From positions 372,001 to 436,000 of the forward strand of contig NZ_SMZJ02000002.1 of NCBI RefSeq assembly GCF_004358095.2: a stretch of DNA of 64,000 nucleotides, in the 5' to 3' direction. Positions 29,690 through 58,890 of the stretch are shown here, piece by piece. A program made the translations under genes and the position numbers. Source of the stretch: Seonamhaeicola sediminis. GTDB lineage: Bacteria > Bacteroidota > Bacteroidia > Flavobacteriales > Flavobacteriaceae. Position 1 is the first letter of the stretch; each line of letters opens with the position of its first letter. Below the pieces are notes generated by a model, which had not been told where the DNA came from, did not search any database, and was given only the letters and a program-made list of their open reading frames with translations.

Positions 29690-29732
29690 ACCACTACAAT
29701 AATTAAAAATACCTATACAAGACCTATACAAG
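29690..29732. promoter_or_regulatory. Operator-like direct repeats, PUL unit 1
   Basis: Three 11-mers on the plus strand fit ACCWMWACAW: ACCACTACAAT (29690-29700), ACCTATACAAG (29711-29721) and an exact second ACCTATACAAG in tandem (29722-29732). Start-to-start spacing is 21 and 11 bp, that is two turns and one turn of DNA. They begin 185, 164 and 153 bp upstream of the -7-like box. Confidence 0.7.
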
Positions 29733-29824
29733 AATAGTTTTTCTTCAATTCAGAAGCTTCCTTTATTCTCTGAAAACACCTTTATTATTAAGATATTGAC
29801 AAAATTTCATGTGTTTTATTGTGA

Positions 29825-29882
29825 TGTATATTTTTTGTTCAGGTAAAAAATATAGATTCAATAATATATCGTGTTAAGTTTA
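29825..29882 (+). promoter_or_regulatory. Promoter of PUL unit 1 (susC operon): conserved 29-bp element plus -7 box
   Basis: A 29-bp element at 29825-29853 (TGTAT, then TTTTTTGT, then AGGTAAAAAATAT) recurs almost unchanged before unit 2 and recognisably before unit 3. Exactly 21 bp after it is TAAGTTTA (29875-29882), close to TAnnTTTG. No TTTG is present at the normal -33 distance, suggesting dependence on an activator. susC starts 24 bp after the box. Confidence 0.7.
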
Positions 29883-29905
29883 CACCAAACTAAAACTAAA
29901 TTAAC

Positions 29906-32900
29906 ATGAGACACACGTTCTTAAAAATTCTAACATTACTCTTCATGGTACACGCCTCTGCGCAATCCATAGAGATTAATGGTAATGTACAGGACAATTC
30001 TGGATTCCCTATCCCTGGAGTCAATGTAATTGTTAAAAATTCAACTAAAGGAACCGTAACAGATTTTGATGGAAACTTTACACTTTCTGGTGTCGAAATA
30101 GGTTCAACACTTACATTCAGCTACATTGGCTATGTTACTCAAGAAATAACTATTTCGAGTAATACCCAATTAATAGTGAAATTAGAAGATGATATAGCTA
30201 AACTAGATGAAGTAGTAGTGATTGGGTACGGTACTCAAACCAAAAAGGAAATTACTGGAGCCGTTTCGGTAGTTGGGCCAGAGACTATTGAAAAGCTTAA
30301 ACCAACAAGAATTGAGCAAGCTTTACAGGGACAAGTTGCTGGAGTAAACATAACCACCAATTCTGGATCTCCAGGTGCAGGTTCTACTATTAGTATTAGA
30401 GGGGTTTCTACAAATGGTGATAGTAGACCATTAATACTTGTAGACGGTAACGTTGTTGAAGACCTAAGTGTTATTAACCCAAGTGATATTCAGAGTATCA
30501 ACATTCTGAAAGATGCTACTGCAGGTATCTATGGGGTTAGAGCTGCTAATGGTGTGATATTAATTACAACCAAAACAGGTAGAAAATCTATGCCTCTTAC
30601 CATTGAGTATAACGCTTGGGGTGGTTTCCAACAAACTACTCGTAAAATACCTGTTCTAAACGCTACGGAATATGCTGTTATTGTCAATGAAGCTTATGCA
30701 GCAGCTGGCAGTACACCTCCCTTTTCAGATTTATCTAGTCTTGGTATTGGAACCGATTGGCAAGATGAAGTTTTTGAATCAGCTCCCGTGTTTAACCATA
30801 ATATTACATTCAGAGGTGGAGGTGAAAAATCTTCTTACTCATACAGTTCCTCCCTGTTATCACAGGATGGTATTGTAGGTGGTAAAAAATCCAACTTTAC
30901 ACGTTTTACTAATGCAGCTACCTATAATCTAGATTTTTTAGACAACTTCAAATTTAAATCAGGGCTTACTCTAACAAGAACCAAAAAGAATAATCTCCCT
31001 GAAAGTACTTTAGGTTCTGTTTTATTTAATGCATTAAACATGGATCCTACCAAATCTGTAAGAGACTCGAACGGCGAATTTACGTTGGCAAATGGCTTGG
31101 GGGCCGAAGTAGTTAACCCATTAGCCCAAATAGCAAACACCTTTAACAGAAATAAAGTTATGAAGCTCAATGGTTTTGCAGGCTTATCATATAACTTTTT
31201 AGATCATTTTACAGCAGAAGCAAATATACAATTTAACTATTCTGAGGTTGATACTTACCGTTATGATCCAGAAGATTTTTATGGTACAGGAAAAGTATTC
31301 AATACATTTACAAGTGAAGTTTTTGAAGGGTTTGATATTTTTAGAGATTACACTTTTGACGGATTTATTAAATATGAAAACACCTTTAATGATGACCACA
31401 AGTTAAATGTACTTTTAGGGACTTCTGTTTTTAAGACTACAGGTGTATTCTCTGGACGTATAGGTAGAGATTTTCGTGATAACAGCCCTACATCAGCTAG
31501 AGTTGATTTAGCCTTAGATCAAGAAGATATTTTTGAAGAACGCGGTAGTAATCCAAAATTTGATGGTAGATTATTGTCATACTTTGCAAGGTTGCAATAT
31601 GATTATAAAGGAAGATACTTACTATCTGCTGTAATTCGTAGAGATGGTTCCACAAGGTTTGGTCCCGGTAATAAGTTTGGATACTTTCCATCAGGTTCTT
31701 TAGGTTGGGTTATTTCAGATGAAGAGTTTATGGGAAATAATAACTTCTTTGACTTATTAAAACTAAGAGCCTCTTATGGTATTTTGGGTAACGATAGAAT
31801 TGGTGATTACCGCTTTGTATCGCTTCTAACTGGAGAAGGCACCTATTTCTTTGGAGGAAATGATGCCGAAGATGAAGTCTTTGGAAAAGCTACAGGAGGT
31901 ATCGCTAATCCTCAAATTAAATGGGAAAAGCAAAAGACAATCGATATTGGGGTTGACATGCGTATATTAAACAACAAGGTAAATATTACGGCAGACTACT
32001 TTAATAGAAGAACTGAAGATTTGTTGGTTTCTCCTCAAGTTTCTGGGTTGTTAGGTACAGGAGCTGCCCCAGTTGTAAATGCTGGAATTGTAGAAAACAA
32101 AGGTTTTGAATTTGCTATTGGTTATTCAGACACCATAGGAGAGGAATTCAAATTTAATATAAACTATAACATTACAGGAATTAAAAATGAAGTTGTTTCT
32201 GTTAGTGGAGAGGGAGAGTTCCTTGAAGGCGGTGGCTTTGGTATATCGCAACCAGAAATATCCAGAATGGAAGCAGGTTTTCCTCTAGGGTATTTTGTTG
32301 GTTACCAAACCGATGGCGTTTTCCAAACTCAAGATGAAGTAAACAACGCTGCAGTAACAAACGTGGCAACACAACCTGGTGACCTTAAATTTGTTGACCA
32401 AAACGGTGACGGAGTCATTGATTTAGATGACCGTGTTAATCTTGGAAACCCTCTTCCAGATGCTACTATGGGGCTTAATATTTCTTTTGACTACAAAAAG
32501 TTTGATTTTTCTGCTTATGCTTTTGCCTCTGTAGGAAATGACATTGTACGTAATTATGAGCGTAACCAACAATTGGTAAATAAACCTATTTGGTATTTAG
32601 ATAGATGGACAGGACCCAGTTCCACCAACGCTGCGCCAAGACAAACTATTGGTACCAGTCCAAATACATTATTTTCTGACTTTTACGTAGAAGATGGTTC
32701 ATTCATTCGATTACAGAACGTACAGTTAGGATATACCTTTTCTAATGATAATGAAGGCTCTTTTTTCGATCAATTCAGACTATATGTATCAGCAAACAAC
32801 CTGTTTACATTAACTGAATACCGTGGTTATGACCCAACTGCTGGAACAGGAGCTCCTATTGGAGGAGGTATAGATCAGGGTATATATCCTAGTGCTAGTA

Positions 32901-32932
32901 CATTCTTATTAGGCATTAATGTAAAATTCTAA
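29906..32932 (+). CDS. susC: SusC/RagA-type TonB-linked glucan import receptor
   Basis: A 1,008-residue outer-membrane transporter. Signal peptide (to about residue 20, ASAQ), CarboxypepD_reg-like domain (about 22-105, ending VVIGYGTQ, the SusC/RagA hallmark TonB-box region), plug (about 110-225, with GQVAGVNITTNSGSPGAGSTISIRG) and a long beta-barrel to a C-terminal VKF. It would import oligosaccharides across the outer membrane with the SusD lid encoded 10 bp downstream. First gene of PUL unit 1. Confidence 0.97.
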   Translation: MRHTFLKILTLLFMVHASAQSIEINGNVQDNSGFPIPGVNVIVKNSTKGTVTDFDGNFTLSGVEIGSTLTFSYIGYVTQEITISSNTQLIVKLEDDIAKLDEVVVIGYGTQTKKEITGAVSVVGPETIEKLKPTRIEQALQGQVAGVNITTNSGSPGAGSTISIRGVSTNGDSRPLILVDGNVVEDLSVINPSDIQSINILKDATAGIYGVRAANGVILITTKTGRKSMPLTIEYNAWGGFQQTTRKIPVLNATEYAVIVNEAYAAAGSTPPFSDLSSLGIGTDWQDEVFESAPVFNHNITFRGGGEKSSYSYSSSLLSQDGIVGGKKSNFTRFTNAATYNLDFLDNFKFKSGLTLTRTKKNNLPESTLGSVLFNALNMDPTKSVRDSNGEFTLANGLGAEVVNPLAQIANTFNRNKVMKLNGFAGLSYNFLDHFTAEANIQFNYSEVDTYRYDPEDFYGTGKVFNTFTSEVFEGFDIFRDYTFDGFIKYENTFNDDHKLNVLLGTSVFKTTGVFSGRIGRDFRDNSPTSARVDLALDQEDIFEERGSNPKFDGRLLSYFARLQYDYKGRYLLSAVIRRDGSTRFGPGNKFGYFPSGSLGWVISDEEFMGNNNFFDLLKLRASYGILGNDRIGDYRFVSLLTGEGTYFFGGNDAEDEVFGKATGGIANPQIKWEKQKTIDIGVDMRILNNKVNITADYFNRRTEDLLVSPQVSGLLGTGAAPVVNAGIVENKGFEFAIGYSDTIGEEFKFNINYNITGIKNEVVSVSGEGEFLEGGGFGISQPEISRMEAGFPLGYFVGYQTDGVFQTQDEVNNAAVTNVATQPGDLKFVDQNGDGVIDLDDRVNLGNPLPDATMGLNISFDYKKFDFSAYAFASVGNDIVRNYERNQQLVNKPIWYLDRWTGPSSTNAAPRQTIGTSPNTLFSDFYVEDGSFIRLQNVQLGYTFSNDNEGSFFDQFRLYVSANNLFTLTEYRGYDPTAGTGAPIGGGIDQGIYPSASTFLLGINVKF

Positions 32933-32942
32933 AAAAAGAGAC

Positions 32943-34427
32943 ATGAAAAATTTAAAATATATATACTTTACATTACTATTTCTAATAGTATTTTCCTGTA
33001 GTGACGATTTTGTAGATGTTGCTTCAGAAGACGAAAACTCTGAAGAATTCTTTAATTCAGAAAACGACTATCAATTAGCACTAGTTGCTGCTTATGACTA
33101 TTTGCAAACTACAGCAAAGTTTTATCAATATGCTGAAATAGCTTCAGATAATACTTTGTGTGGTGGAGAGAGCGCCACAGATTCTCCTTATATTCAAGAA
33201 ATTGATGATATGATTCATTCTCCTGTTGGGCAAAGCGATGGAGGTTTAAGAACCATGTGGCAATGGATGTACGAAGCCGTAAATCGTTGCAACTACATCA
33301 TGGAGTTTCAGGACAAAACTGATTTTCCAAATAAAACCAGTGTGATTGCTCAAACAAGATTTCTAAGAGCATATTATAATTTTATTTTAGTAAAATGGTG
33401 GGGTGATGTGCCTATGCTAGTAGATAAACGCATTCAATTTGGAGATCAATTTACCATAGATAGAACACCCAAAGGAGAAGTGTATGCACTCATAGAAGAA
33501 GATTTAATCTTCGCAGCTGCTAACCTTCCTTATATTCAAAACGAAACTGGTAGAGTAACTAAAGGAGCTGCTCAAGGGCTTTTAGGTAGAGTTTATCTTT
33601 ATCAAGATAAATTTGCTGAGGCTGCTGATGTTTTAGAAGATTTAATAAACAACGGACCTCACAGATTATTAACCTCTGATGAATATCCAAATATGTTTGA
33701 ACGTGATTGGGAAAACAATATTGAATCTGTTTTCGAAATTCAATATTCCGATGTTGATGGTGGTAGCTACGATTGTTTCCAATGTTTAGAAGGAAACTAT
33801 ACCACATTCTTTAATGGCCCAAGAGATTTTATAGACTCTACCGGTAAATTTGACGCCGGTTATAGCTTTAACATACCAACACAAGAGGCTGTAGATGCTT
33901 TTGAACCTGGAGATTTACGCTTTGAAACCACCATTTTGGATATTGAACAATATATAGCTGACAATCCTGGATCATCCTACGATGCAAATGCTGGTTATGA
34001 GCAAACAGGTTATTTCAACAGAAAGTACATCGCTAGAAAAGGCGATTTAGATATTGCCGATGCTGCTTTGACAAACCCCGACAATTACAGGGCTATACGT
34101 TATGCTGATGTGCTTTTAATGGCCGCAGAGGCACTAAACAGAGGCGGCATAAGTGATACTAGGGCGCAAAATTACTTGAATCAAGTTAGAAATAGAGCCA
34201 TGCTCCCAAGTGTTTCTACAACAGGAACAAACTTAACGAATGATATTTACAAAGAACGTAGAGTAGAGCTTTTTGGAGAAGGTCATCGATTCTTCGATTT
34301 GGTAAGAACCGGCAGAGCTGCTCAAGCTATCGACGGATTTGTTTCTGGAAAACATGAACTATTCCCTATTCCAATTGAAGAAATCAATTTATCTGGAGGA
34401 AGATGGGCACAAAACCCAGGGTATTAA
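32943..34427 (+). CDS. susD: SusD/RagB-type surface glycan-binding lipoprotein
   Basis: A 494-residue surface lipoprotein, lipobox FSC with Cys19 followed by SDD, an acidic export signal for the outer face. It contains the SusD features: tetratricopeptide-like helices (QTRFLRAYYNFILVKWWGDVPML, about 135-160; AAQGLLGRVYLYQDKFAEAADVLEDLI), a C-terminal region with YRAIRYADVLLMAAEALNR and RRVELFGEGHRFFDLVRTG, ending in the usual FPIPIEEINL segment. It closes the SusC pore and captures the glucan. 10 bp after susC and 18 bp before the next lipoprotein gene. Confidence 0.97.
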   Translation: MKNLKYIYFTLLFLIVFSCSDDFVDVASEDENSEEFFNSENDYQLALVAAYDYLQTTAKFYQYAEIASDNTLCGGESATDSPYIQEIDDMIHSPVGQSDGGLRTMWQWMYEAVNRCNYIMEFQDKTDFPNKTSVIAQTRFLRAYYNFILVKWWGDVPMLVDKRIQFGDQFTIDRTPKGEVYALIEEDLIFAAANLPYIQNETGRVTKGAAQGLLGRVYLYQDKFAEAADVLEDLINNGPHRLLTSDEYPNMFERDWENNIESVFEIQYSDVDGGSYDCFQCLEGNYTTFFNGPRDFIDSTGKFDAGYSFNIPTQEAVDAFEPGDLRFETTILDIEQYIADNPGSSYDANAGYEQTGYFNRKYIARKGDLDIADAALTNPDNYRAIRYADVLLMAAEALNRGGISDTRAQNYLNQVRNRAMLPSVSTTGTNLTNDIYKERRVELFGEGHRFFDLVRTGRAAQAIDGFVSGKHELFPIPIEEINLSGGRWAQNPGY

Positions 34428-34445
34428 AAAATAAAAATATTAAAG

Positions 34446-36539
34446 ATGAAAAATTTAAAATTTATATTCAGCTTATTAATTGCTTTAGCGCTTTTCTCTA
34501 ACTGTGCTGAAGATGACAATGATTTGAGTTTCATTGATGAAGTTGTAGCGCCTTCGGAAGTGTCTGCCCTTTTTAAAGTAACTCAGGATAATACGGGTGT
34601 AGTGACCATTACGCCCAATGCCGTTGGGGCATCAAATTTCAACATCACCTTTGGTGATGAAACTCCAGAACCTGTTAATGTTATACAAGGTGAAGGTGTT
34701 TCTCATACCTATAAAGAAGGGGCATATATTGTAAATATAGAAGCTGTTGGGATAACGGGACTAACAACAGAGGCTGCACAAAATCTGGAGGTATCATTTA
34801 AAGCACCAGAAAATGAAATTATTACAATTGCAAACGACGAGGCTATCTCTAAGCAAGTGAATGTTACAGCTACTGCTGACTTTGCTATATCTTATGAAGT
34901 CTACTTTGGTGAAGAAGGAAATGATACCCCGGTAGCTGGTAACATAGGAGATACAGTGTCCTATGTATACCAAGAGCCTGGAACTTATACCATTCGTATA
35001 GTGATTATGGGTGCGGCAATTGAAACAACAGAATATATAGAAGAATTTGAAGTGACTGAAATTCTTCAGCCAGTAGAACCCGCACCAGCACCTCCAAATA
35101 GAGAGGAAACCGATGTTATTTCGTTATATAGCTCAAAATATGATGATGTGCCTGGGACTAACTTCTTTCCTGATTGGGGACAAGGTGGACAGGGTAGTGC
35201 TTGGGCTGAATTCGACCTTAACGGCGATATGATGTTGCAATATATCAACTTAAGCTATCAAGGTATCGCATTAGCCGATGGGACTTCTATAGATGTCTCT
35301 GGAATGAAATATCTCCACTTAGATGTTTGGACAGCTAGTGAAGGTCTAAAGATAGAAACGTCTTTAATCAATAATGCATCAGGAGATGTTACCGAAAAAC
35401 CCGTATGGAGTGATTTAACCTCTGGAGAATGGACGAGCTTAGACATTCCTATTTCAGATTATACAGATCAAGGTCTTACTGTGACAGAAATCTTCCAATT
35501 AAAATTTGTTGGTGACCCTTGGGCAGCAGGAACAGTATTTATAGATAATATTTATTTCTATAAGCCATCTACTGTGGCAGAAGTTCCTGAATATAATGCC
35601 CCTTCGCCAACTCAAAAAGCTGCAAATGTAGTATCCATTTTTAGCGATAGTTATACGAGTGTTGGCATAAGTGAATTAAATCCTAATTGGGGACAAACCA
35701 CAACATTAACCACAGTAGATATAAATGGTAATAATATTTGGTTATACGAAGCATTAAATTACACAGGTATTGTAACAGACTACGGCAACCCAACCAATTT
35801 ATCAGGAATGGATTATGTTCACTTTGATTATTTTACACCAGACGCAGAAAAGCTTGGTTTAAAAATTGTTAATACAGTAGTTGGTCAAGAAGATGTAATT
35901 TTTGTCGACAGAATTGTAAGAGGTACCTGGGTTAGTGTAACTGTACCAATGAGTAAATTCAATGTTGATGCTTCACAAATCACTCAAATGTTATTTGATA
36001 CCGAAGGAGGTAGCGCTAAGGTGTACATAGATAATCTTTATTTCTATTCCGATAGTTCTACACAACCAGAGGTAATCGCACCAGTGCCAACAATTGCACA
36101 AAATGATGTTATTTCAATTTATAGTGATGCTTATTCTGGTGTTACACTTAATGAGGTAAATCCAAATTGGGGGCAAACCACAACATTATCAGACTTTAGT
36201 GTAGATGGAAATAATATTTGGTTGTATGAATCTTTAAATTATTCAGGAATCGTTACAGATTATGGTAACCCAACTGATTTAACAGGTGTAAAATACTTGC
36301 ATTTTGATTATTACACTCCAGATGCTACAACCTTAGGATTTAAAATAGTTAATACCGCTTTAGACCCCGTAATGGAGGACATTGTATTCCTACCAGAAGT
36401 GCTAACTGGTACTTGGATAAGTGTAACAATTCCGTTAACAGATTATAACTTAGATTTTTCAAATATCACGCAGTTAATTTGGGATACCTCAGGAGGTAGC
36501 GCAACAGTATTTATCGATAATATCTATTTTCATAATTAA
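34446..36539 (+). CDS. Surface glycan-binding lipoprotein with PKD-like domains and three repeated binding modules (SusE-like position)
   Basis: A 697-residue lipoprotein (lipobox FSNC, Cys20, followed by AEDD, so probably surface-exposed). Two PKD/Ig-like domains (about 30-120 and 120-205) are followed by three homologous modules of about 145-160 residues (about 220-375, 390-535, 550-697). Each starts with (V/D)-V-(I/V)-S-(I/L)-(Y/F)-S, contains a P-(N/D)-W-G-Q motif and ends with IDN-(I/L)-YF. Modules 2 and 3 are clearly more alike than either is to module 1, indicating a recent duplication. No catalytic motif. By position after SusD and by composition it should bind the glucan at the cell surface; the same module ends the lipoprotein at 42257-43714. 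Confidence 0.85.
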   Translation: MKNLKFIFSLLIALALFSNCAEDDNDLSFIDEVVAPSEVSALFKVTQDNTGVVTITPNAVGASNFNITFGDETPEPVNVIQGEGVSHTYKEGAYIVNIEAVGITGLTTEAAQNLEVSFKAPENEIITIANDEAISKQVNVTATADFAISYEVYFGEEGNDTPVAGNIGDTVSYVYQEPGTYTIRIVIMGAAIETTEYIEEFEVTEILQPVEPAPAPPNREETDVISLYSSKYDDVPGTNFFPDWGQGGQGSAWAEFDLNGDMMLQYINLSYQGIALADGTSIDVSGMKYLHLDVWTASEGLKIETSLINNASGDVTEKPVWSDLTSGEWTSLDIPISDYTDQGLTVTEIFQLKFVGDPWAAGTVFIDNIYFYKPSTVAEVPEYNAPSPTQKAANVVSIFSDSYTSVGISELNPNWGQTTTLTTVDINGNNIWLYEALNYTGIVTDYGNPTNLSGMDYVHFDYFTPDAEKLGLKIVNTVVGQEDVIFVDRIVRGTWVSVTVPMSKFNVDASQITQMLFDTEGGSAKVYIDNLYFYSDSSTQPEVIAPVPTIAQNDVISIYSDAYSGVTLNEVNPNWGQTTTLSDFSVDGNNIWLYESLNYSGIVTDYGNPTDLTGVKYLHFDYYTPDATTLGFKIVNTALDPVMEDIVFLPEVLTGTWISVTIPLTDYNLDFSNITQLIWDTSGGSATVFIDNIYFHN

Positions 36540-36552
36540 AAAATAAGAAATC

Positions 36553-37506
36553 ATGAAAAACATAAAATATATATTAATGCCAATAATAAGCTTGCTGCTA
36601 ATAACAAGCTGTCAAGATGATGAGGGTGTTGTAGGAGATATAATTGCTCCAAGTAACGTTAGCATGTCCTATGAAATTGTTGGCGTAGACGCCAATAACC
36701 CTAATGGCGACGGAACAGGATTAGTGAATTTTACAGCTTCTGCTGATGGTGCTATAACGTATAGATATGATTTTGGAGATGATACCGATGTGGTAGTAGC
36801 ACCTTCAGGTACGGTAACACATCAATTTAGCCTTACAGGCCTAAACACTTATTCTGTTACCGTTATGGCTTCAGGTATTGGAGGTATTACAACTTCAGAA
36901 TCTATGAATATAGATGTATTTAGTTCTTTTGAAGATCAAGAAGCTAAAGACTTCTTAACTGGTGGAGCTGGCTCTAGCAAAACATGGTATTGGGCTGCCG
37001 ATAAACCAGGCAATATTGGTTTAGGACCAAATGACGTACAAGCTAATGGCGAACACACCTATGATTTTTGGTTTAGATCAAACGCATGGCATTCTGATAA
37101 ACTATGTATGTATGATGCTGAGTTTGTATTTACACAGTCTGCTGATGGTAAAGTGACTTTTGAACAATTAAAAGACATAGCGTACACACCTGGTGATTAT
37201 GCTGGAAGTATTGGAATAGATGGTGACACATGCCACGGCACCGATGTGGCTCCAAGTTTAGATGGTATAAAAAATGTGAGTTTCTCTCCTTCAAATTCTA
37301 AAGCAACAAAAGATGGTACTAATCCAGAATACAGAGGTACAACCATGAACTTTTCGGATAATGGTTTTATGTGCTGGTATGTTGGACCAAGTCTTTCCAG
37401 TAAACTCGAAATTATTACGATAACAGCAAATGAATTATACGTTAGAATAGAAGAGGGGCCTAGAGCTTGGTATTGTTTATACCAAACAGACAACCCTAAC
37501 GATTAA
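36553..37506 (+). CDS. PKD-domain glycan-binding lipoprotein
   Basis: A 317-residue lipoprotein (lipobox ITSC, Cys20, followed by QDDE). A PKD-type domain (about 28-125, YRYDFGDD... motif) precedes a C-terminal domain (about 130-317) with KTWYWAADKPGNIGLGPN, WHSDKLCMYDAEFVF and four cysteines, of a kind that recurs next to SusD in flavobacterial glucan loci. No catalytic residues of a hydrolase were seen, so it is taken as a binding protein. Its N-terminal 100 residues are homologous to those of the next gene's GH16. Followed by a strong hairpin. Confidence 0.75.
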   Translation: MKNIKYILMPIISLLLITSCQDDEGVVGDIIAPSNVSMSYEIVGVDANNPNGDGTGLVNFTASADGAITYRYDFGDDTDVVVAPSGTVTHQFSLTGLNTYSVTVMASGIGGITTSESMNIDVFSSFEDQEAKDFLTGGAGSSKTWYWAADKPGNIGLGPNDVQANGEHTYDFWFRSNAWHSDKLCMYDAEFVFTQSADGKVTFEQLKDIAYTPGDYAGSIGIDGDTCHGTDVAPSLDGIKNVSFSPSNSKATKDGTNPEYRGTTMNFSDNGFMCWYVGPSLSSKLEIITITANELYVRIEEGPRAWYCLYQTDNPND

Positions 37507-37512
37507 TAGCTA

Positions 37513-37556
37513 AAAAAGTATCGAAGCATAAGATGATTTCTGCTTCGATACTTTTT
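37513..37556 (+). terminator. Strong terminator inside PUL unit 1
   Basis: A perfect 16-bp stem (37513-37528 with 37541-37556; core GTATCGAAGCA), a 12-base loop and five terminal T, 47 bp before the GH16 gene. It could partly separate the binding proteins from the enzyme. Confidence 0.85.
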
Positions 37557-37602
37557 ACACAATAACTTAAATTAAATTAGCCCAGACATAGGTTCTAATG
37601 AA

Positions 37603-38779: not shown

Positions 38780-38822
38780 ACCTCAACATCGTTATAATAT
38801 ACCTATACAAAACCACAACATA
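38780..38822. promoter_or_regulatory. Operator-like direct repeats, PUL unit 2
   Basis: Three 11-mers fit ACCWMWACAW: ACCTCAACATC (38780-38790), ACCTATACAAA (38801-38811) and ACCACAACATA (38812-38822). Start-to-start spacing is again 21 and 11 bp, and they begin 185, 164 and 153 bp upstream of the -7-like box, the same numbers as in unit 1. Confidence 0.7.
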
Positions 38823-46730: not shown

Positions 46731-46770
46731 TGGCTGAATTAATGAAAATGTAAGGATAGAATTTTTATTG

Positions 46771-46806: not shown

Positions 46807-46865
46807 TGACCCAAGTTATTATGATCATAGCTTTAGTAGATAACAAACCAAAAGTAACCAACAGG

Positions 46866-50276: not shown

Positions 50277-50285
50277 AAAACTAAA

Positions 50286-51545
50286 ATGTTGAGAATAACC
50301 CAGTATCTAACACTTTCAATATTATTATTTATGCTAGGATGTATTAAAGCGCCAAAAACTACAAAGCAAATTACGGCAGCCCAAATTTTAGGAAACCCTA
50401 ACTATTTAGCAATTTCTTATGGAGGATACCGTGAAAAATCCCGTGACCTACAACCCTCCATCAACGAGCTAAAAGATGATATGAAATTACTGTCTGCTAT
50501 GGGTATCAAGGTTTTAAGAACTTATAACGTGCAGTTGCCACAAGCTCCAAATATCTTAAAAGCCATTACACAATTAAAAACCGAAGACCCTTCGTTTGAA
50601 ATGTATGTTATGCTTGGTGCTTGGATTGATTGTAAAAACGCTTGGACAGGTTTAGAGCCCAATCATGAAGTGGAAAGCGAGCACAATGAAAGTGAAATTG
50701 CAAGAGCCGTAGCCCTAGCACAACAATACCCAGACATTGTGAAAATTATTGCTGTTGGGAATGAAGCTATGGTGCATTGGGCCACCAGTTATTTTGTGCG
50801 CCCTAATGTAATTCTAAAATGGGTAAATCATTTACAGAATTTAAAAATAAAAGGCAATCTACCTAAAGACCTTTGGATAACCAGTTCAGACGATTTTTCG
50901 TCTTGGGGAGGTGGTGATCCAGCATACCATACCGAAGATTTAAATAACCTTATAAAGTCAGTAGACTATATATCTATGCATACATATCCAATGCATAATA
51001 CACATTATAACCCAGCTTTTTGGTTAATGCCTGAGGATGAGATAAACTTATCTGATAATGAAAAAATTGAATCTGCAATGCTACGCTCCTTAGAATTTGC
51101 CAAAAAACAATATGACAGTGTTGCAAATTATATGAAAAGTTTAGGAGTAAACAAACCCATTCACATAGGAGAAACAGGATGGGCTACGGTATCAAATGGG
51201 CATTATAGTGCCAATGGTTCCAGAGCCTGTGATGAGTATAAGTCTGGCAGATACTATGAGTTAATAAGAGAGTGGACAAACAAAAATAATATTTCCTGTT
51301 TCTATTTCGAGGCTTTTGATGAACAATGGAAAGATGCGGCTAATCCTATGGGTTCTGAAAATCATTTTGGATTAATAAACCTTAAAGGAGAAGCTAAATA
51401 CGCCATTTGGGATTTGGTTGATAAGGGTGTTTTTGAAGGGTTAACAAGAGACGGAAACCCTATTAAAAAAACCTATAAAGGTGATAAAAAAGCCCTAATA
51501 AAAGAGGTCTTAACACCTCCTGTTGCAATGAGCGTTTTACATTAA
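50286..51545 (+). CDS. GH17-like glycoside hydrolase lipoprotein
   Basis: A 419-residue lipoprotein (lipobox LGC, Cys19, followed by IKAPK with no acidic residues, so more likely to stay in the periplasm). A clan GH-A barrel with the GH17-type catalytic segments: acid/base Glu160 in AVGNEAMVHW, nucleophile Glu296 in HIGETGWATV, and CFYFEAFDEQWK at the end of the barrel. It differs from the two short GH17 proteins further along the locus by longer loops and a C-terminal tail. Probable role: exo- or endo-attack on imported beta-1,3-oligoglucans. 10 bp after the phosphorylase gene. Confidence 0.8.
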   Translation: MLRITQYLTLSILLFMLGCIKAPKTTKQITAAQILGNPNYLAISYGGYREKSRDLQPSINELKDDMKLLSAMGIKVLRTYNVQLPQAPNILKAITQLKTEDPSFEMYVMLGAWIDCKNAWTGLEPNHEVESEHNESEIARAVALAQQYPDIVKIIAVGNEAMVHWATSYFVRPNVILKWVNHLQNLKIKGNLPKDLWITSSDDFSSWGGGDPAYHTEDLNNLIKSVDYISMHTYPMHNTHYNPAFWLMPEDEINLSDNEKIESAMLRSLEFAKKQYDSVANYMKSLGVNKPIHIGETGWATVSNGHYSANGSRACDEYKSGRYYELIREWTNKNNISCFYFEAFDEQWKDAANPMGSENHFGLINLKGEAKYAIWDLVDKGVFEGLTRDGNPIKKTYKGDKKALIKEVLTPPVAMSVLH

Positions 51546-51557
51546 AATCTAACAAAA

Positions 51558-53060
51558 GTGAAAGTAAAAAAGTTAACCGTTATAGGTGTTTTTTTAGTTA
51601 TAATGAATTGCCAAGAATCAAATAAAAACAGCTTGCAAGCTGAAATTTTTGAAACCTCAGCCAAAGGTAATAAACTTACCATGATAACTGATTTTAAAAA
51701 AGTTGATGGTTTAGTTACTATTAAACTAATTCCAGAAAATACTTATCAAACCATTACCGGCTTTGGAGGTGCTTTCACAGAATCTTCGGCTTATTTATTG
51801 AAAAAATTGAGTAAAAATAATAGGGATACTATTTTAAAAGCTTACTTCGGAAAAGATGGTGCAAGGTATTCTCTTACCAGAACTCACATGAATTCTTGCG
51901 ATTTTTCCTTAACAAACTACTCTTATACTCCAATTGAGGGTGATAAAAATTTAGAGCACTTCTCTATTAAAGAAGATATGGATGATTTAATCCCAATGAT
52001 AAAAGATGCTCTTGCTATCTCAGAAGATGGCTTTAAAATATTTGCATCGCCTTGGACAGCGGCACCATGGATGAAAGATAACAACCATTGGGTTGGTGGT
52101 AAATTATTACCTGAATATTATGATACATGGGCTTTATTTTTTTCAAAATATTTGGATGCTTACAAATCCGAAGGAATAGACATCTGGGGGTTTACCGTTG
52201 AAAACGAACCCCATGGAAATGGTAATAACTGGGAAAGCATGCATTTTTCACCAAAGGAAATGACTGACTTCGTTCAATTTCACTTAGGTCCTAAATTAGA
52301 AACTGATGGTTTTGGTGATAAAATCATTTTAGGTTATGACCAAAATAGAGCTGGTTTAAAAGAATGGGTTGATGAAATGTACAGAGATGAAGCTTCCTCT
52401 AAATACTTCGATGGCACTGCTATTCATTGGTATGAAAGCACCTATGACTACTTTCCTGAGGCTTTACAATACGCGCATCAAAAAGCTCCAGATAAGTACT
52501 TAATTGAAACTGAAGGTTGTATTGATGCTGAGGTTCCTGTTTGGAAAGATGACGCTTGGTATTGGAAAAAAGAAGCTACTGATTGGGGTTGGGACTGGGC
52601 TTCTGAAGAAGAAAAATATTTGCATCCTAAATATGCACCTGTAAACCGCTATGCCCGTGATATTATTGGTTGTCTTAATAACTGGGTTGATGGTTGGGTA
52701 GATTGGAACATGGTACTAGATAAACAAGGCGGTCCTAATTGGTTTAAAAACTGGTGTATAGCGCCTGTAATTGTAGATCCTGAGTCTGATGAAGTTTATT
52801 TCACACCTCTCTATTATACCATGGCGCATTTTAGTAAATATATTAGGCCAGAAGCCAAAATTATTGGTTTAGAAAATTCTGATGAAAAATTAATGGCAAC
52901 GGCAGCCCAAAACCCTGATGGAACACATGTGGTAATTCTATTTAATGAATTTGAAACACCAAAATCGGTCAATATAGTATTGAACGATAAAAATTTAGAA
53001 ATAACTATAGACGCTCAAGCAATTCAAACTATTGTAATACCACAACCGGTAAAAGAGTAA
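51558..53060 (+). CDS. GH30 glucanase/glucosidase lipoprotein (putative beta-1,6 debranching)
   Basis: A 500-residue lipoprotein (Cys18 in MNCQES; GTG start) with a GH30 (beta/alpha)8 domain plus the associated beta-sandwich (about 440-500). The acid/base is Glu217 in FTVENEPHGNGNNW and the nucleophile Glu319 in LIETEGCID; ITGFGGAFTESSAYLL near the N-terminus is a family signature. GH30 enzymes of flavobacterial laminarin loci remove beta-1,6-linked glucose branches, which fits this neighbourhood. The post-cysteine sequence is only weakly acidic, so periplasmic placement is likelier. Confidence 0.9.
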   Translation: MKVKKLTVIGVFLVIMNCQESNKNSLQAEIFETSAKGNKLTMITDFKKVDGLVTIKLIPENTYQTITGFGGAFTESSAYLLKKLSKNNRDTILKAYFGKDGARYSLTRTHMNSCDFSLTNYSYTPIEGDKNLEHFSIKEDMDDLIPMIKDALAISEDGFKIFASPWTAAPWMKDNNHWVGGKLLPEYYDTWALFFSKYLDAYKSEGIDIWGFTVENEPHGNGNNWESMHFSPKEMTDFVQFHLGPKLETDGFGDKIILGYDQNRAGLKEWVDEMYRDEASSKYFDGTAIHWYESTYDYFPEALQYAHQKAPDKYLIETEGCIDAEVPVWKDDAWYWKKEATDWGWDWASEEEKYLHPKYAPVNRYARDIIGCLNNWVDGWVDWNMVLDKQGGPNWFKNWCIAPVIVDPESDEVYFTPLYYTMAHFSKYIRPEAKIIGLENSDEKLMATAAQNPDGTHVVILFNEFETPKSVNIVLNDKNLEITIDAQAIQTIVIPQPVKE

Positions 53061-53078
53061 TTAACTAAACAAATATGA

Positions 53079-54512
53079 ATGATGTCTAACACAAAAATAA
53101 CTGCTAAAGATAGAGTACCCATAGGCCAAAAAGCTGCTTTTGGAGCAGGACACTTAGTCTTGAACTTATACCCAGGAGCTTTGGGATTCTTTATGTTCTT
53201 CTTATTGACAGCTTTTGGTATGGATCCCTTTTTAGCGGGGCTTCTAGGTGGGCTACCTCGTTTTTTTGATGCTGTAACCGATCCTATTATGGGGTTTATC
53301 TCAGACAACACAAGTTCTAAATGGGGCAGAAGGAGACCATATATTTTGGTTGGAGGCATTCTAAGCGCCATAACATTTGTTCTTTTATGGCAACTTGATG
53401 AAAATAATTCCTCAAACTATAATTTTTGGTACTTTTTAATTATGTCTATGGTTTTTCTCATCGGGAACACCATGTTTGCTACACCTCTTGTAGGTTTAGG
53501 ATATGAAATGACTTCAGACTACAACGAACGTACTCGTTTAATGGCCTTTTCACAAACCGTTGGTTTATTGGCTTGGGTAATTGTGCCTTGGTTTTGGGTA
53601 ATTATTGCAGACCCTGATATATTCAGTAACCAAGCTGAAGGAGTAAGAACTATGGCAATTTATGTGGGAGTAGTATGTTTGTTTTTAGGCCTATTACCGG
53701 CAATATTTTGTAGAGGTATAGATGCTTCTCACATGGGAAATAGAAAAAAATTAACCTTAACCAGTGTATTTAGTAATCTAAAAGATTTGTTCATCAGTAT
53801 TAAAGAGGCTGTAAAAAACAGACCTTTTATGAAGCTATGTGGAGCCACTTTTTTAGTGTTTAATGGTTATCAAATTGTAGCATCTTTTAGTTTCTTCATT
53901 TTCGTTTTTTACATTTTTAATGGAAGCTATGAAGCCACTGCAACATGGCCTGCTTGGTTTAGTTCTATGGGGGCATTGGTTTCTGCATTTTTGGTAATTC
54001 CCATTGTTTCCGCAATGTCTGGAAAATGGGGCAAAAAAAATGCTTTCATTATTTCTACAGCGCTTTCTATAGTGGGTTATATCATGAAATGGTGGGCTTT
54101 TACTCCTGATAATATATGGCTTTCTTTTATTCCAATACCTTTAATGTCATTTGGCTTAGGAAGTTTATTCACATTAATGATGAGTATGACCGCTGATGTT
54201 TGTGATTTAGATGAACTACGTAATGGAATGCCTAGAAAAGAAGGAACCTTTGGAGCCTTATATTGGTGGGTTGTAAAACTCGGACAAGGATTAGCATTAG
54301 TGTTAGGGGGTCTAGTCTTAAAACTTATAGGTTTTGACGGTAACGCAGCAACACAAACTGCAGATACTTTAACAAAATTAAGAATCGCAGATATAGTAAT
54401 TCCTGTGGTAACTGCAGGATTGGCTATATGGGTTATGTGGAAATATAGCTTATCTGAAGAAAGAGCTAAAGAAATTAAAGCGCAATTGGAAGAAAGAAGA
54501 GGTGTATTATAA
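53079..54512 (+). CDS. GPH-type MFS sugar symporter (copy 1)
   Basis: A 477-residue inner-membrane transporter with twelve predicted helices. The glycoside-pentoside-hexuronide:cation symporter signature is clear: GLPRFFDAVTDPIMGFISDNTSSKWGRRRPYILVG (about 45-85) and the central DVCDLDELRNGMPRKEGTFGALYWW (about 365-395). It should import beta-glucan di- or oligosaccharides from periplasm to cytoplasm with a cation. The homologous gene at 56171-57631 is a second copy. 19 bp after GH30. Confidence 0.92.
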   Translation: MMSNTKITAKDRVPIGQKAAFGAGHLVLNLYPGALGFFMFFLLTAFGMDPFLAGLLGGLPRFFDAVTDPIMGFISDNTSSKWGRRRPYILVGGILSAITFVLLWQLDENNSSNYNFWYFLIMSMVFLIGNTMFATPLVGLGYEMTSDYNERTRLMAFSQTVGLLAWVIVPWFWVIIADPDIFSNQAEGVRTMAIYVGVVCLFLGLLPAIFCRGIDASHMGNRKKLTLTSVFSNLKDLFISIKEAVKNRPFMKLCGATFLVFNGYQIVASFSFFIFVFYIFNGSYEATATWPAWFSSMGALVSAFLVIPIVSAMSGKWGKKNAFIISTALSIVGYIMKWWAFTPDNIWLSFIPIPLMSFGLGSLFTLMMSMTADVCDLDELRNGMPRKEGTFGALYWWVVKLGQGLALVLGGLVLKLIGFDGNAATQTADTLTKLRIADIVIPVVTAGLAIWVMWKYSLSEERAKEIKAQLEERRGVL

Positions 54513-54545
54513 TTATATAACGGTTAAACAATAAACCAAAACAAC

Positions 54546-55178
54546 ATGTCAACTAAAATAATCATCATCATTGGGGTTGTTCTTATTTTAATTGCAATCC
54601 TAAGTAGTATAAAAAGAAACTCAGACTCCAGGTTAATAAGTACAAAACTCGGGGTCCCATCGGGAATTATAGGTGTTTTAATGTTAATATATGCTAGCTA
54701 TTCATCCGATTTAGTACAATATAATAGACAAATTGAACAAGTATCAATTGGCAACAAATTGAAAATAGAGGGAGAGGTAATTAACACAAAAGTGGTTTCT
54801 CCTATTGATCAAGATTCTGTGGATTGCAGAATTTTAACCATGGGCGTATACCCAAAAGCTAACAAAAATGATATTTGGGTATTAATTCATCCAACTGATG
54901 ATCGTTACTATCCACAATCAGACCATACCAATACATCATACAAAAGAGATGGTGAATGGCAAGTAGTTACCCGTTTTGGTGGTGATTTAGGGGAAGCTTA
55001 TGACCTAATTGTTTATGAAACAGACAGTATTGCTTCTAATTTCTTTAGTTCAACCATTTTAAAATGGAAAGAAGTCAATGACTATCCTGGTTTAAAACTA
55101 GAAGAAATACCAATCAGTACTAAAGAAGTAGACAGAATTAAAATATATACCAGAAAAAATTGCAGGGGGATATTTTAA
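54546..55178 (+). CDS. Unknown membrane protein within the PUL
   Basis: A 210-residue protein. Two N-terminal transmembrane helices (about 3-22 and 35-53) with a short basic loop, then a single globular domain (about 65-210) that is rich in beta-strands (KLKIEGEVINTKVV, YDLIVYETD, VDRIKIYTRKNC). I do not recognise a family. It lies between a symporter and a GH17 in the middle of the operon (33 and 58 bp gaps), so it is presumably co-expressed with glucan uptake; a signalling or transporter-accessory role is speculation. Confidence 0.6.
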   Translation: MSTKIIIIIGVVLILIAILSSIKRNSDSRLISTKLGVPSGIIGVLMLIYASYSSDLVQYNRQIEQVSIGNKLKIEGEVINTKVVSPIDQDSVDCRILTMGVYPKANKNDIWVLIHPTDDRYYPQSDHTNTSYKRDGEWQVVTRFGGDLGEAYDLIVYETDSIASNFFSSTILKWKEVNDYPGLKLEEIPISTKEVDRIKIYTRKNCRGIF

Positions 55179-55235
55179 AGTCACTTTGTTGAGAAATAGA
55201 ATCGAAAACGTTGAATTAATTAATTACAATTTAAG

Positions 55236-56147
55236 ATGTCGTACAGAGAAGAATCATATTATAAATCTAATTATAGCCAGATAGCAACGGCGGGTATTAA
55301 CCTTTCAGATTATTCTTTAGATGAATTAAAAGCTTTATGGCGTAAAACCATTCAAAATGGTTTTCATGGTATTTGCTTTAGTATGTATAAAGATGGACAA
55401 TCACCAGGAGATAATATAAATATGCAACAAGTTGAAGATCGAATAAAGATACTAAAGACTTATGTAGGTGCCATCCGCTCATTTTCATGCATTGAAGGCA
55501 ATGAATTTGTGCCAATAGCAGCAAAAAAACATGGTTTAAAAACCTTGGTAGGCGCATGGTTAAGCAACGACAAAGAAGATAATGAAAAGGAGATTGCAGG
55601 CTTAATTGAATTGGCAAAATCTGGAAATGTTGATGTAGCTGCTGTAGGTAACGAAGTTCTTTATAGAAATGATTTAACCCTTGATGAATTGGTTGAATAT
55701 ATAAACCGTGTTAAAGAAGCTTTGTCTGGACTTGATATCCCTGTGGGTTACGTAGATGCCTATTACGAGTTTTCAAGACACCCCGTTTTAGTAGAAAGTA
55801 CTGATGTTATATTAGCAAATCTATATCCCTATTGGGAAGGTTGTCCTATTGAATACGCGCTTGGTCATATGCAGTCCATGTATGGCTCTGTGGTAGATGC
55901 TGCTCAAGGTAAACCCATTATTATTACAGAAACGGGGTGGCCTAGTCAAGGTGGTGGTTTAAATGGTGCTATTGCAACCGAAGAATCTGCTATGAGGTAC
56001 TTTATAGATACTATTCGATGGACAAAAGAAAATGACATTCCCATTTTCTACTTTTCATCTTTTGATGAATCTTGGAAAACAGGTGATGAAGGTGATGTTG
56101 GTGCCTATTGGGGGCTTTGGGATAAACATGAAAATCTCAAATTTTAA
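55236..56147 (+). CDS. GH17 beta-1,3-glucanase/transglycosidase without signal peptide (copy 1)
   Basis: A 303-residue GH17 protein. Catalytic residues: Glu140 in AVGNEVLYR as acid/base and Glu232 in ITETGWPS as nucleophile; IFYFSSFDESWK and the C-terminal GAYWGLWDKHENLKF complete the domain. The start MSYREES is not a signal peptide, so the enzyme is cytoplasmic, unusual for a degradative endo-glucanase. It may trim imported oligoglucans for the phosphorylase or transfer glucosyl units. The second copy at 57612-58541 is homologous along its whole length and has the same MSYR start. It is followed by a symporter after 23 bp. Confidence 0.9.
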   Translation: MSYREESYYKSNYSQIATAGINLSDYSLDELKALWRKTIQNGFHGICFSMYKDGQSPGDNINMQQVEDRIKILKTYVGAIRSFSCIEGNEFVPIAAKKHGLKTLVGAWLSNDKEDNEKEIAGLIELAKSGNVDVAAVGNEVLYRNDLTLDELVEYINRVKEALSGLDIPVGYVDAYYEFSRHPVLVESTDVILANLYPYWEGCPIEYALGHMQSMYGSVVDAAQGKPIIITETGWPSQGGGLNGAIATEESAMRYFIDTIRWTKENDIPIFYFSSFDESWKTGDEGDVGAYWGLWDKHENLKF

Positions 56148-56170
56148 AGTCTTATTCATAACTAAAAACC

Positions 56171-57631
56171 ATGTCAATAATTAAAACAACATCAAAAAGT
56201 AAAGTTCCACTAGGGCAAAAAGTGGCGTTTGGTGTTGGCATGCTAGCCAACCAAATGTTTCCTGCTATTCTTGGAATTTTTATGGTGGTTTTAATTCAAG
56301 ATTTAGAGTTTACAGGGTGGATGTGGTCTCTTATATATTTCTTCCCAAGAATTTTTGATGCCATAACAGATCCTATTATGGGTTATATCTCTGATAATAC
56401 AAAATCCAAATGGGGTAGAAGAAGACCCTATGTTTTAATAGGAGCTTTAATAATGGGAGTCTCATATATTTTTATGTGGCAACTATTTAAGGAAAATTCA
56501 TTACAATATAATTTTTGGTATTTCTTCTTATGGTCAATTGTATTTTACTTTGGCCTTACCTTATTTAGCGTGCCTTATGTAGCTATGGGCTATGAAATGA
56601 GTGACGATTTTCATGAACGCACCAGTATTATGGCTGTAGCCCAATGGATAGGACAATGGGCTTGGGTAATAGCTCCTTTATTTTGGATTATCATGTATGA
56701 TCCTAATTGGTTTCCTTCTGCAGAAATAGCTGCACGCCAACTAGCCATTTGGGTAGCCATACCCTGTGCTATTTGTGCTATGGTTCCAGCCATTTTTTTA
56801 AAGAGCAAGTCTACTTTAAATGAAAATTATGAACCAATAAATTTGAAAAAAATAGGTGACAGTTTAAAGAAGATATTTGTTAATAGTTTTGCCGAAGCTT
56901 TCAATATTAAGGAGTTTAGACAACTCTGTGCAGCTACTTTCTTAATTTTCAATGCATTTAATACTGTTGCAGCCCTTACCTTTTTTGTTATTGTTTATAA
57001 GCTGTTTAATGGGGATGCTGCAGCTAGTGGTATTTGGGTGTCTTTGTTCGGGTGTTTGGGTGCTTTGGGTACAACATTTATAGTTATTCCAATAGTTACT
57101 TGGATGTCTAAAATTATGGGTAAGAAAAAAGCATTTATGTGGTCTCAAGGTATTTCAATCATTGGATATATTTTGCTTTGGTTTTTATTTGTTCCTGGTA
57201 AGCCTTGGATGTATATTATTGCACTTCCATTTTTTTCCTTCGGAATAGGCAGTCTTTTTACAATAATGATGTCTATGACAGCCGATGTCATTGATATAGA
57301 TGAATTAAATTCAGGATTAAGAAGGGAAGGTATCTTTGGAGCCATTTATTGGTGGATGGTTAAAATTGGTTTTGCCATTGCCGGAGCTCTAAGTGGTGTT
57401 ATTATTTCTATTGTGGGATTTAACCCCGATCTAACTACCACAGAACAACAAACAGCCGTTGATGGTCTTCATGCTTTTTTCTGTTTTTTCCCAATGGTAG
57501 GTACATTGCTTGCCATGTATATCATGCGTAATTATAATGTAACTGAAGAGCGATCTAATGAGATTAGAGCTGAATTAGATAAAAGAAAAGTGAATTCTAA
57601 TTTTAATGCAAATGTCGTACAGAGTAGATAA
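56171..57631 (+). CDS. GPH-type MFS sugar symporter (copy 2)
   Basis: A 486-residue, twelve-helix transporter closely related to copy 1 at 53079: FFPRIFDAITDPIMGYISDNTKSKWGRRRPYVLIG and DVIDIDELNSGLRREGIFGAIYWW are the matching signatures. Its 3' end overlaps the start of the second GH17 by 20 bp (if that starts at 57612), a sign of translational coupling. Two symporters in one operon suggest different oligosaccharide lengths or linkages, or a simple duplication of a symporter-GH17 cassette. Confidence 0.92.
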   Translation: MSIIKTTSKSKVPLGQKVAFGVGMLANQMFPAILGIFMVVLIQDLEFTGWMWSLIYFFPRIFDAITDPIMGYISDNTKSKWGRRRPYVLIGALIMGVSYIFMWQLFKENSLQYNFWYFFLWSIVFYFGLTLFSVPYVAMGYEMSDDFHERTSIMAVAQWIGQWAWVIAPLFWIIMYDPNWFPSAEIAARQLAIWVAIPCAICAMVPAIFLKSKSTLNENYEPINLKKIGDSLKKIFVNSFAEAFNIKEFRQLCAATFLIFNAFNTVAALTFFVIVYKLFNGDAAASGIWVSLFGCLGALGTTFIVIPIVTWMSKIMGKKKAFMWSQGISIIGYILLWFLFVPGKPWMYIIALPFFSFGIGSLFTIMMSMTADVIDIDELNSGLRREGIFGAIYWWMVKIGFAIAGALSGVIISIVGFNPDLTTTEQQTAVDGLHAFFCFFPMVGTLLAMYIMRNYNVTEERSNEIRAELDKRKVNSNFNANVVQSR

Positions 57632-58541
57632 AGTAATGTCCTTATCAGGAGGTCATCTTGAGAATAAAACCTTAAAGGGATTACAAAACCTTTTTAAGCG
57701 TGTCTTTAATAATGGTATGCATGGACTTTGTTTTAGTCCCTATCTAGAAGGACAGGAACCTGGAGATCATATTACTGAAAAGCAAATTAGAAAGAGAATG
57801 AAAATCATTAAACCATACACAAAATGGATACGTTCTTTTTCTTGTACTGAAGGTAATGAACTTATCCCAATAATAGCAAAAGAGTATGGTATTAAAACTT
57901 TGGTGGGCGCATGGTTAGGTAATGATAATGAAATTAATAAAAAGGAAATAGCAGGTCTTAAAAGACTCGCTAATCAAGGTTATGTAGATATTGGCGCTGT
58001 GGGTAATGAGGTTATGTACAGAGGTGATTTGACTGAGGATGAATTAATAGGCTTTATTTATGATGTAAAACGAGATTTAACTAATACTCCTGTTGGTTAT
58101 GTGGATGCCTATTATGAATTTAGTCACAGACCAAAAATAACCCAGGCTTGTGATGTTATTCTAGCTAACTGTTACCCATTTTGGGAAGGTTGCAGTAATG
58201 AGTACTCTTTAATCTATATCAAAGATATGTATAACCAAGCTATTAAGGCGGCTAATGGTAAAAAAGTAATTATCACAGAAACTGGATGGCCCAGTGATGG
58301 TAAACCTTTACAAGGAGCTATACCATCGTATGAAAATGCTATGAAGTATTTTATAAATACCCAGCAATGGTCTAAAGAAGATAATGTTGATATATTCTAT
58401 TTTTCATCATTCGATGAATCTTGGAAAGTAGGTGCTGAGGGCGATGTTGGTGCCTTTTGGGGATTATGGGATAAGAATGAACAAACAAAGTTTTACAGTA
58501 ACAGTCCATTATCAATTAAAAACATAAAGGTATTTCTATAA
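57612..58541 (+). CDS. GH17 beta-1,3-glucanase/transglycosidase without signal peptide (copy 2)
   Basis: A 309-residue GH17 protein homologous to the one at 55236. Glu133 in AVGNEVMYR is the acid/base and Glu223 in ITETGWPSDG the nucleophile. The start at 57612 is chosen because it gives MSYR, the same N-terminus as copy 1; the ATG at 57606 would add only two residues. No signal peptide, so cytoplasmic. It overlaps the symporter gene by 20 bp. A decayed further copy of its 3' end follows 5 bp after the stop codon. Confidence 0.9.
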   Translation: MSYRVDKVMSLSGGHLENKTLKGLQNLFKRVFNNGMHGLCFSPYLEGQEPGDHITEKQIRKRMKIIKPYTKWIRSFSCTEGNELIPIIAKEYGIKTLVGAWLGNDNEINKKEIAGLKRLANQGYVDIGAVGNEVMYRGDLTEDELIGFIYDVKRDLTNTPVGYVDAYYEFSHRPKITQACDVILANCYPFWEGCSNEYSLIYIKDMYNQAIKAANGKKVIITETGWPSDGKPLQGAIPSYENAMKYFINTQQWSKEDNVDIFYFSSFDESWKVGAEGDVGAFWGLWDKNEQTKFYSNSPLSIKNIKVFL

Positions 58542-58546
58542 AACAC

Positions 58547-58729
58547 TTTATCAATACACAGAAGAGAATGATATTGATATCTTTTATTTCTATTTCATTT
58601 GCTGAGTCTTGTAAAGTTGGTTCAGAGCGAGATGTAGTCGCGTAATGGAGACTTTGGGATAAAAATGAAAAGCATAAATTTTTTAAGCAACCTTCTTTGT
58701 TGAAGAAGGGAAAAAGACCAATTATTTAA
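58547..58729 (+). pseudogene. Decayed 3' fragment of a third GH17 gene
   Basis: Translation gives FINTQ (58547-58561), then, after a frame change, ENDIDIFYF (from 58564), then in another frame SFAESCKVGSERDVVA, a stop, WRLWDKNEKHKFF and a C-terminal tail to TAA 58727-58729. These align in order with YFINTQQWSKEDNVDIFYFSS, SFDESWKVGAEGDVGA and WGLWDKNEQTKFY of the intact upstream GH17, including its C-terminal tail. It has frameshifts and at least one in-frame stop, so it is a dead remnant of about 60 codons. Confidence 0.8.
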
Positions 58730-58868
58730 ATAGGATTCTTGAATTAAAATTATTGGGCCTTTTTATACGATTATAAGACTAATAGCATCAAATTAACTGC
58801 TTTTTAAAGTTTTTAAAGGTCTTAGGTAGCACAACATTAATAATCAGAGCAATACAATAATAAAATAC
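58730..58868. other. Intergenic region before PUL unit 3, left part
   Basis: No gene is seen. One diverged operator-like 11-mer, AGCACAACATT (58828-58838), with a single mismatch to the repeats listed next, lies 41 bp upstream of them. Confidence 0.4.
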
Positions 58869-58890
58869 ACCACAACATTACCACAACATT
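58869..58890. promoter_or_regulatory. Operator-like tandem direct repeat, PUL unit 3
   Basis: ACCACAACATT occurs twice in exact tandem (58869-58879 and 58880-58890), fitting ACCWMWACAW. The repeats begin 184 and 173 bp upstream of the -7 box at 59053, that is 20 bp further than the tandem pair in units 1 and 2. Confidence 0.65.

Follow-up and report, generated by a model that had tools for sequence, protein, structure and literature searches.

Short direct repeats stand ahead of each of three transcription units in a 64,000-nt stretch of the Seonamhaeicola sediminis genome (GCF_004358095.2, NZ_SMZJ02000002.1, positions 372,001-436,000 of the forward strand; hereafter the window), and they raise the question of which protein reads them and how. 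Judged by its gene content (SusC, SusD, PKD-type, GH16, GH17, GH30 and MFS proteins), the window is a polysaccharide utilization locus (PUL) of the laminarin type, laminarin being a major storage sugar of algae. The repeats fit the motif ACCWMWACAW and are arranged as triads, defined here as three copies with start-to-start spacings of 21 and then 11 bp. The sequence comparisons described below indicate that the triad is probably one part of a bipartite operator, with both parts on the same face of the helix, for a membrane-anchored laminarin regulator that combines a Y_Y_Y domain with a GerE-type helix-turn-helix (HTH) domain and is encoded at 26877-29687, and that this regulator probably closes a DNA loop between the two parts.

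The first-pass annotation of the window had described eight 11-mers before the three units. All eight lie where it placed them, with the correction that the motif has 10 letters and that 11 bp is the pitch, and its spacings of 21 and 11 bp and its distances of 185, 164 and 153 bp to a -7-like box in units 1 and 2 were correct. It had overlooked a degenerate first copy in unit 3 with one mismatch (AGCAATACAA at 58848), so that all three units carry full 21 + 11 triads; the repeats of unit 3 are 205, 184 and 173 bp from the -7-like box at 59053. The boxes are labelled -7-like according to the consensus of the Bacteroidetes -7 box. In the whole 3.54-Mb genome, exactly three triads were found with up to three mismatches, all on the same strand and each before one of the units, while the controls, for which the reversed motif was used, gave none. 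The mismatch-free tandem pair likewise had three matches against none for the controls, and relaxing it to two mismatches added eight matches against nine in the controls, which is background. That such pairs are not spread across the genome agrees with their first interpretation as regulatory sites, and random repeats were ruled out by these counts and controls. Half-site scores at the places where further repeats could lie, within the triad gap (offsets 10 and 11) or beyond the triad (42, 43 and 53), were at background.

The original description of the sequence between the triads and the promoters as unconserved holds only in part: a 20-bp element, TGTATGTTTTTTGTnnnGGT, is common to 29825, 38915 and 59003 and was unseen in the first pass. 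This element has three matches in the genome, at the same three promoters as the triads, and begins in each unit exactly 50 bp ahead of the -7-like box; with only three genome matches, a function as a general SusC promoter was ruled out. An expectation-maximization search downstream of 133 triads, including 49 of the 60 orthologue copies described below, returned TGTATGTTTTTTGTtGnGGT with a -7-like TAAnTTTA 50 bp from the start of the element. Its score was higher than all of the shuffled controls in 132 of the 133 loci, where the shuffling, as in the half-site tests, preserves base composition only. A plain-pattern match with up to three mismatches was obtained in 120 of the 133 loci, 73 of them mismatch-free, compared with 7 of 133 for the reversed control.

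On the opposite strand, the proximal element reads ACCnCWACAA-A-AAACATACA. A matrix built from repeats B and C of the triad only gave a reverse-strand peak at +10 (126 loci; mean score 9.4; 83% above 6) against a mean over offsets of -24 with a standard deviation of 6. Next in rank among the 135 offsets was the one exactly 11 bp from this peak. Given these reverse-strand half-site matches at the 11-bp pitch, the operator consists of three forward repeats followed by two inverted repeats at the promoter. The forward triad and the inverted pair are two separated copies of one site, and their separation is helically phased.

The triad-to-element start distance is 135 bp in units 1 and 2 and 155 bp in unit 3. 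For the 126 of the 133 loci used for classification (score above 20, distance 120-200 bp), the distances formed classes at 135.0 (n = 10), 146.5 (53), 158.0 (44), 169.4 (16) and 195 bp (3), and the phasing R reached 0.74, whereas the null never exceeded 0.29; here the classes are counted on related sequences and the null smooths the observed distances with descent not modelled. The independent pattern gave an R of 0.73 in 120 loci. Because this null ignores descent, we added a tree and a comparison of nearest relatives. At least 15 changes of distance class were counted on a FastTree tree of 62 full-length regulators, in which 18 of the 59 inner branches are poorly supported. Among 48 nearest-relative pairs, which share members, the distances differed by 0-3 bp in 31, 10-14 bp in 12, 24 bp in 2 and 37-38 bp in 2, and by 181 bp in one pair including locus L040, where no proximal element was found; none of the 48 pairs differed by 4-9 bp. 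A/T-rich stretches about 10 bp apart were also observed after the triad (+49 to +52 and +59 to +61), as if the DNA were pre-bent, in a profile of 84 loci that is biased by the pattern used for their collection.

Phasing demonstrates only that the two parts are on the same face, and it would equally be expected if the regulator bound both elements on one face with no loop, the upstream HTHs contacting RNA polymerase or a co-regulator, or the protein spreading along the DNA. We consider such an arrangement unlikely, since the opposite orientations of the repeats, the variable spacer of nearly full turns and the low conservation after the triad favour bridging over spreading.

The triad is linked to the regulator in other genomes of the family. 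Among 397 family genomes, a regulator orthologue (E ≤ 1e-120) was found in 235, and triads with up to two mismatches were found at 97 places in 90 genomes, with none for the reversed controls. All of the 90 triad genomes carry the orthologue (Fisher, 6e-25), and the triad was found in none of the 162 genomes without a regulator match. We examined 81 of the 94 places outside S. sediminis with their flanks, calling open reading frames (ORFs) of at least 100 aa mechanically. In all 81, the triad was outside the called ORFs and had the same strand as the gene after it, which was a homologue of SusC in 58, of the 39062 gene in 15, of a PKD or GH16 gene in 6 and of the 59106 gene in 2. The preceding gene was a regulator homologue at 68 of the 81 triads, with the triad beginning -1 to +3 bp from the regulator end in 61 of them. 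In these 61, the triad is pinned within 3 bp of the regulator stop codon (29688-29690 in the window; L037-L116 in relatives) while its distance to the promoter varies, and regulator and operator are perhaps travelling as one cassette.

From the matches listed, we then chose 60 further orthologue copies, of which 53 are the best copies of genomes that lack a triad at up to two mismatches and 7 are second copies. With up to five mismatches, the triad was found at 40 of them, compared with 2 of 60 for the reversed motif, and 37 of these 40 triads begin -2 to +3 bp from the regulator stop codon. The 21/11 geometry accounted for those 40 loci, while every other geometry tried gave 23 at most. The earlier expectation that the repeats persist in relatives keeping the regulator was not contradicted: the orthologue is in 90 of 90 triad genomes, the triad is in 0 of the 162 genomes without a regulator match, and these 40 further copies have it too. 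In a draw of 395 genomes from the phylum, the triad was found in 11, of which 10 were among the 41 of the same family, and in the single triad genome outside the family it was again located behind a regulator homologue, of 45% identity.

The regulator is a one-component protein, membrane-spanning according to its sequence and structural model, with a C-terminal HTH and a gene beside susC/susD, and it is the only full-length match of its kind in the genome. Pfam identified Y_Y_Y and GerE domains (GerE 24.9 bits against a gathering cut-off of 23.5) and no histidine kinase, receiver or AraC domain. The AlphaFold2 (AF2) model has a mean predicted local distance difference test (pLDDT) score of 86, low in 796-862, and places the recognition helix at 907-920; a helix at 737-800 is predicted to begin in the membrane. 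The periplasmic part resembles the BT3049, BT4663 and BT4673 sensors, with query-normalised Foldseek template modelling (TM) scores of 0.62 for BT3049 and 0.60 for BT4663.

Of 126 aligned regulators, 118 have V or I and 8 have T at residue 912, which lies in the recognition helix. Within repeats B and C, G occupies base 6 in 11 of the 16 repeats with T912 and in none of the 214 with V or I, and a G is found in the proximal element at 6 of the 7 scorable T912 loci compared with 2 of the 119 others, unit 2 of the window being one of those two. Most T912 regulators show a changed word in both elements. Such a link between an HTH residue and its word would be strong in kind, and it reflects perhaps one event. 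Paralogous regulators with the same triad geometry were noted at L071, L174, L177 and L179-L182 (T912) and at L191; the L071 paralogue is followed by SusC/SusD, a GDPD-GH16 protein, an Exo_endo_phos protein and GH3, and the L191 cluster contains similarly distant SusC and GH16. The assignment of the triads to the regulator at 26877-29687, first made from their spacing and their conservation across the three promoters, is supported by the co-occurrence and by this covariation of helix and word, and it was incomplete in that the inverted pair at the promoter had been missed.

The regulator might bind the triad, with the proximal element serving as a promoter signal or being bound by another factor, as its fixed position 50 bp from the -7-like box would be expected of a promoter element. 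However, the element is found nowhere else in the genome, matches the reversed triad half-site at the 11-bp pitch and changes its word with the triad in six of the seven scorable T912 loci, which leaves this explanation quite improbable. It is more improbable still that another DNA-binding protein, for example an AraC-type hybrid two-component system (HTCS), binds the triad and that the adjacent regulator is incidental. In the portion of PMC3878776 consulted, HTCS motifs average 21-bp direct repeats, and two genome ORFs of ~1370 aa with matches to the sensor part are possible HTCSs, but the presence of the triad tracks the regulator and the recognition helix covaries with the word. Finally, an action of the repeats in RNA, as a 3' untranslated region element of the regulator mRNA that abuts the stop codon in those 61 of 68 loci, is barely conceivable because the regulator does not precede units 2 and 3 or 13 of the 81 sites in relatives, and those 13 have distances of 133, 144, 147-148, 157-159 and 163 bp, in the same classes (133-163) as the others; together with the location outside called ORFs, the units not behind the regulator rule out a coding or RNA element.

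We thus return to the bipartite, same-face operator with a probable loop. The triad would be its upstream half and the 20-bp element, containing two opposite-strand copies of the 11-bp repeat, the other half, with one GerE-type HTH reading each repeat. The propeller and Y_Y_Y part may sense periplasmic beta-1,3-gluco-oligosaccharides, and the signal would reach the HTHs at the inner face of the membrane by way of a single transmembrane helix and a long coil. HTHs on the forward triad and on the inverted pair would then lie on the same helix face and interact, forming a loop of ~113, 124, 136 or 147 bp from the centre of the tandem pair to the centre of the inverted pair, a separation of some ten helix turns or more, and the promoter-side pair beside the -33 region would recruit RNA polymerase, acting in activation rather than repression. 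By motif, the three operons would represent the whole direct regulon in this genome, to which weak control of the regulator gene itself may be added. The sequences show the sites, their geometry and conservation, their linkage to the regulator and the covariation; the ligand, the binding, the activation and the loop are inferred.

Several observations weigh against this reading. The distance classes, 11.5 bp apart, have a period of 11.6 bp (bootstrap 11.4-11.9), above the 10.5 bp per turn of relaxed DNA. This period is also longer than that of in vivo lac loops, ~10.9 bp in the consulted part of PMC1831498. At up to two mismatches, 145 of the 235 orthologue genomes lack a triad, and 11 of the 60 orthologue copies (L147, L154, L159, L163, L164, L166, L167, L169, L172, L176 and L178) lack one within seven mismatches near the stop codon. 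In the inverted pair, the outer repeat (consensus AAACATACA) has no CC. As for residue 912, the T912 loci probably form one (paralogue) clade, so that the covariation may be one event; the proximal word of unit 2 carries G (ACCTCGACAA) despite V912 in the regulator, the T912 locus L040 retains A/T words without a recognisable proximal element, and L177 has G in one repeat and not in the proximal element. Some of the triad-less copies were seen to retain partial repeats, and the genes that usually come next have been displaced or reversed in L166 and L167.

Upstream of the regulator gene, no full triad was found in this genome (up to three mismatches), and another full operator in this region was ruled out accordingly. 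Any half-site was found upstream of the regulator in 39 of 69 loci compared with 25 of 69 after shuffling and 30 of 77 other windows, a weak excess for single sites. Forward same-strand pairs of half-sites were present in 15 of the 69 loci, and 345 shuffles of the upstream regions gave none at score 6 and 5 pairs at score 4; reverse-strand pairs numbered 2. The spacings of the same-strand pairs were 11, 12, 23, 33, 41, 44, 45, 55, 56, 66 and 78 bp, mostly near multiples of 11. Weak autoregulation via the two half-sites 66 bp apart in the window is possible from their arrangement. At the other end of the window, the large ORF of unit 3 (60513-64000) extends past the window end and may resemble GH81.

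Table 1. Operator parts, -7-like boxes, half-sites and genes in the window (positions are those of the window)
Feature	Position	Strand	Sequence or content	Remark
Regulator, 936 aa	26877..29687	+	signal helix, periplasmic propellers, Y_Y_Y, helix 737-800, GerE/LuxR-type HTH	membrane-anchored one-component
Triad 1	29690..29731	+	ACCACTACAA (29690), ACCTATACAA (29711), ACCTATACAA (29722)	
Triad 2	38780..38821	+	ACCTCAACAT (38780), ACCTATACAA (38801), ACCACAACAT (38812)	
Triad 3	58848..58889	+	AGCAATACAA (58848), ACCACAACAT (58869), ACCACAACAT (58880)	
Promoter-proximal inverted pair 1	29825..29844	-	TGTATATTTTTTGTTCAGGT	sequence given for + strand
Promoter-proximal inverted pair 2	38915..38934	-	TGTATGTTTTTTGTCGAGGT	sequence given for + strand
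Promoter-proximal inverted pair 3	59003..59022	-	TGTATGTATTTTGTATGGGT	sequence given for + strand
-7-like box, unit 1	29875..29882	+	TAAGTTTA	
-7-like box, unit 2	38965..38972	+	TAAATTTA	
-7-like box, unit 3	59053..59060	+	TAACTTTG	
Half-site	26780..26789	+	ACCTATACAA	possible autoregulation
Half-site	26846..26855	+	ACTACAACAA	66 bp (6 x 11) after the 26780 half-site
Inverted half-site	26858-26867		AACTATACAA	
Unit 1	29906..38703	+	SusC, SusD, two PKD-like-domain proteins, GH16	operon assumed from gene order
Unit 2	39062..58541	+	GH2-C-like, GH16, CBM4/9, three GH17, GH30, two MFS_2 transporters, unassigned ORFs	operon assumed from gene order
Unit 3	59106..64000	+	type IX secretion system (T9SS) sorting domain protein (59106-60443), large ORF from ~60513	

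The araCBAD and lac systems are looping operators, in which two separated and helically phased sites are bridged by an oligomer. The present operators share the two separated sites and the helical phasing, the bridging oligomer being a feature of araCBAD and lac, while they differ in having a membrane-tethered presumed activator, a period of 11.6 bp and a triad facing an inverted pair. Among regulators of PULs, Ravcheev et al. (2013; PMC3878776, consulted in part) predicted sites for four Bacteroides SusR-like regulators and 16 HTCSs, the SusR-like sites being direct repeats with long whole-turn spacers of 67 or 77 bp between centres. Both these and the present regulator are membrane-anchored one-component regulators of PUL operons, 'SusR-like' referring here to architecture and role only, and the 67/77-bp spacing given in that part of the source resembles the 44-, 55- and 66-bp pairs upstream of the present regulator gene in some loci. 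In contrast, the present operators have five half-sites, with the forward triad (21 + 11) and the inverted pair at the promoter 113-147 bp away, and the system belongs to laminarin loci of another family, with a propeller/Y_Y_Y sensor and a GerE HTH. The HTCSs BT3049 and BT4663 have the same periplasmic sensor fold, and the 21-bp spacing reported for HTCS motifs, again in the consulted part, is also that between the first two triad repeats, whereas the present regulator has a GerE HTH and histidine kinase, receiver and AraC domains were not found in it.

Laminarin PULs of Formosa and Muricauda have the same GH17/GH30/MFS gene content as the window, and the first gene is annotated as LuxR in many Muricauda clusters, according to the covered parts of PMC13188888; the word 'promoter' is absent from its text and those parts describe no operator. 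Among the papers listed by our literature searches, subscription journals excepted, none showed an operator for laminarin PUL regulators of this group. A search for the same repeat words returned one unrelated paper, a term search of PMC11345257 for regulators had no matches, and nothing was gained on regulators from the consulted parts of PMC5613140 and PMC12125979.

The three operons offer a precise and testable operator for laminarin use, and with it laminarin regulons become readable from sequence in many genomes. Beyond this genome, we are slightly inclined to think that in laminarin PULs across the family a membrane-tethered sugar sensor closes a helically phased loop at the inner membrane, between a forward triad and an inverted pair of its 11-bp word, that the evolution of spacers by whole turns is a record of this loop, and that part of the word is set by residue 912. 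The finding also offers a link from an HTH residue to a base, and the natural spacing variants would provide a test of DNA looping by a membrane-anchored regulator.

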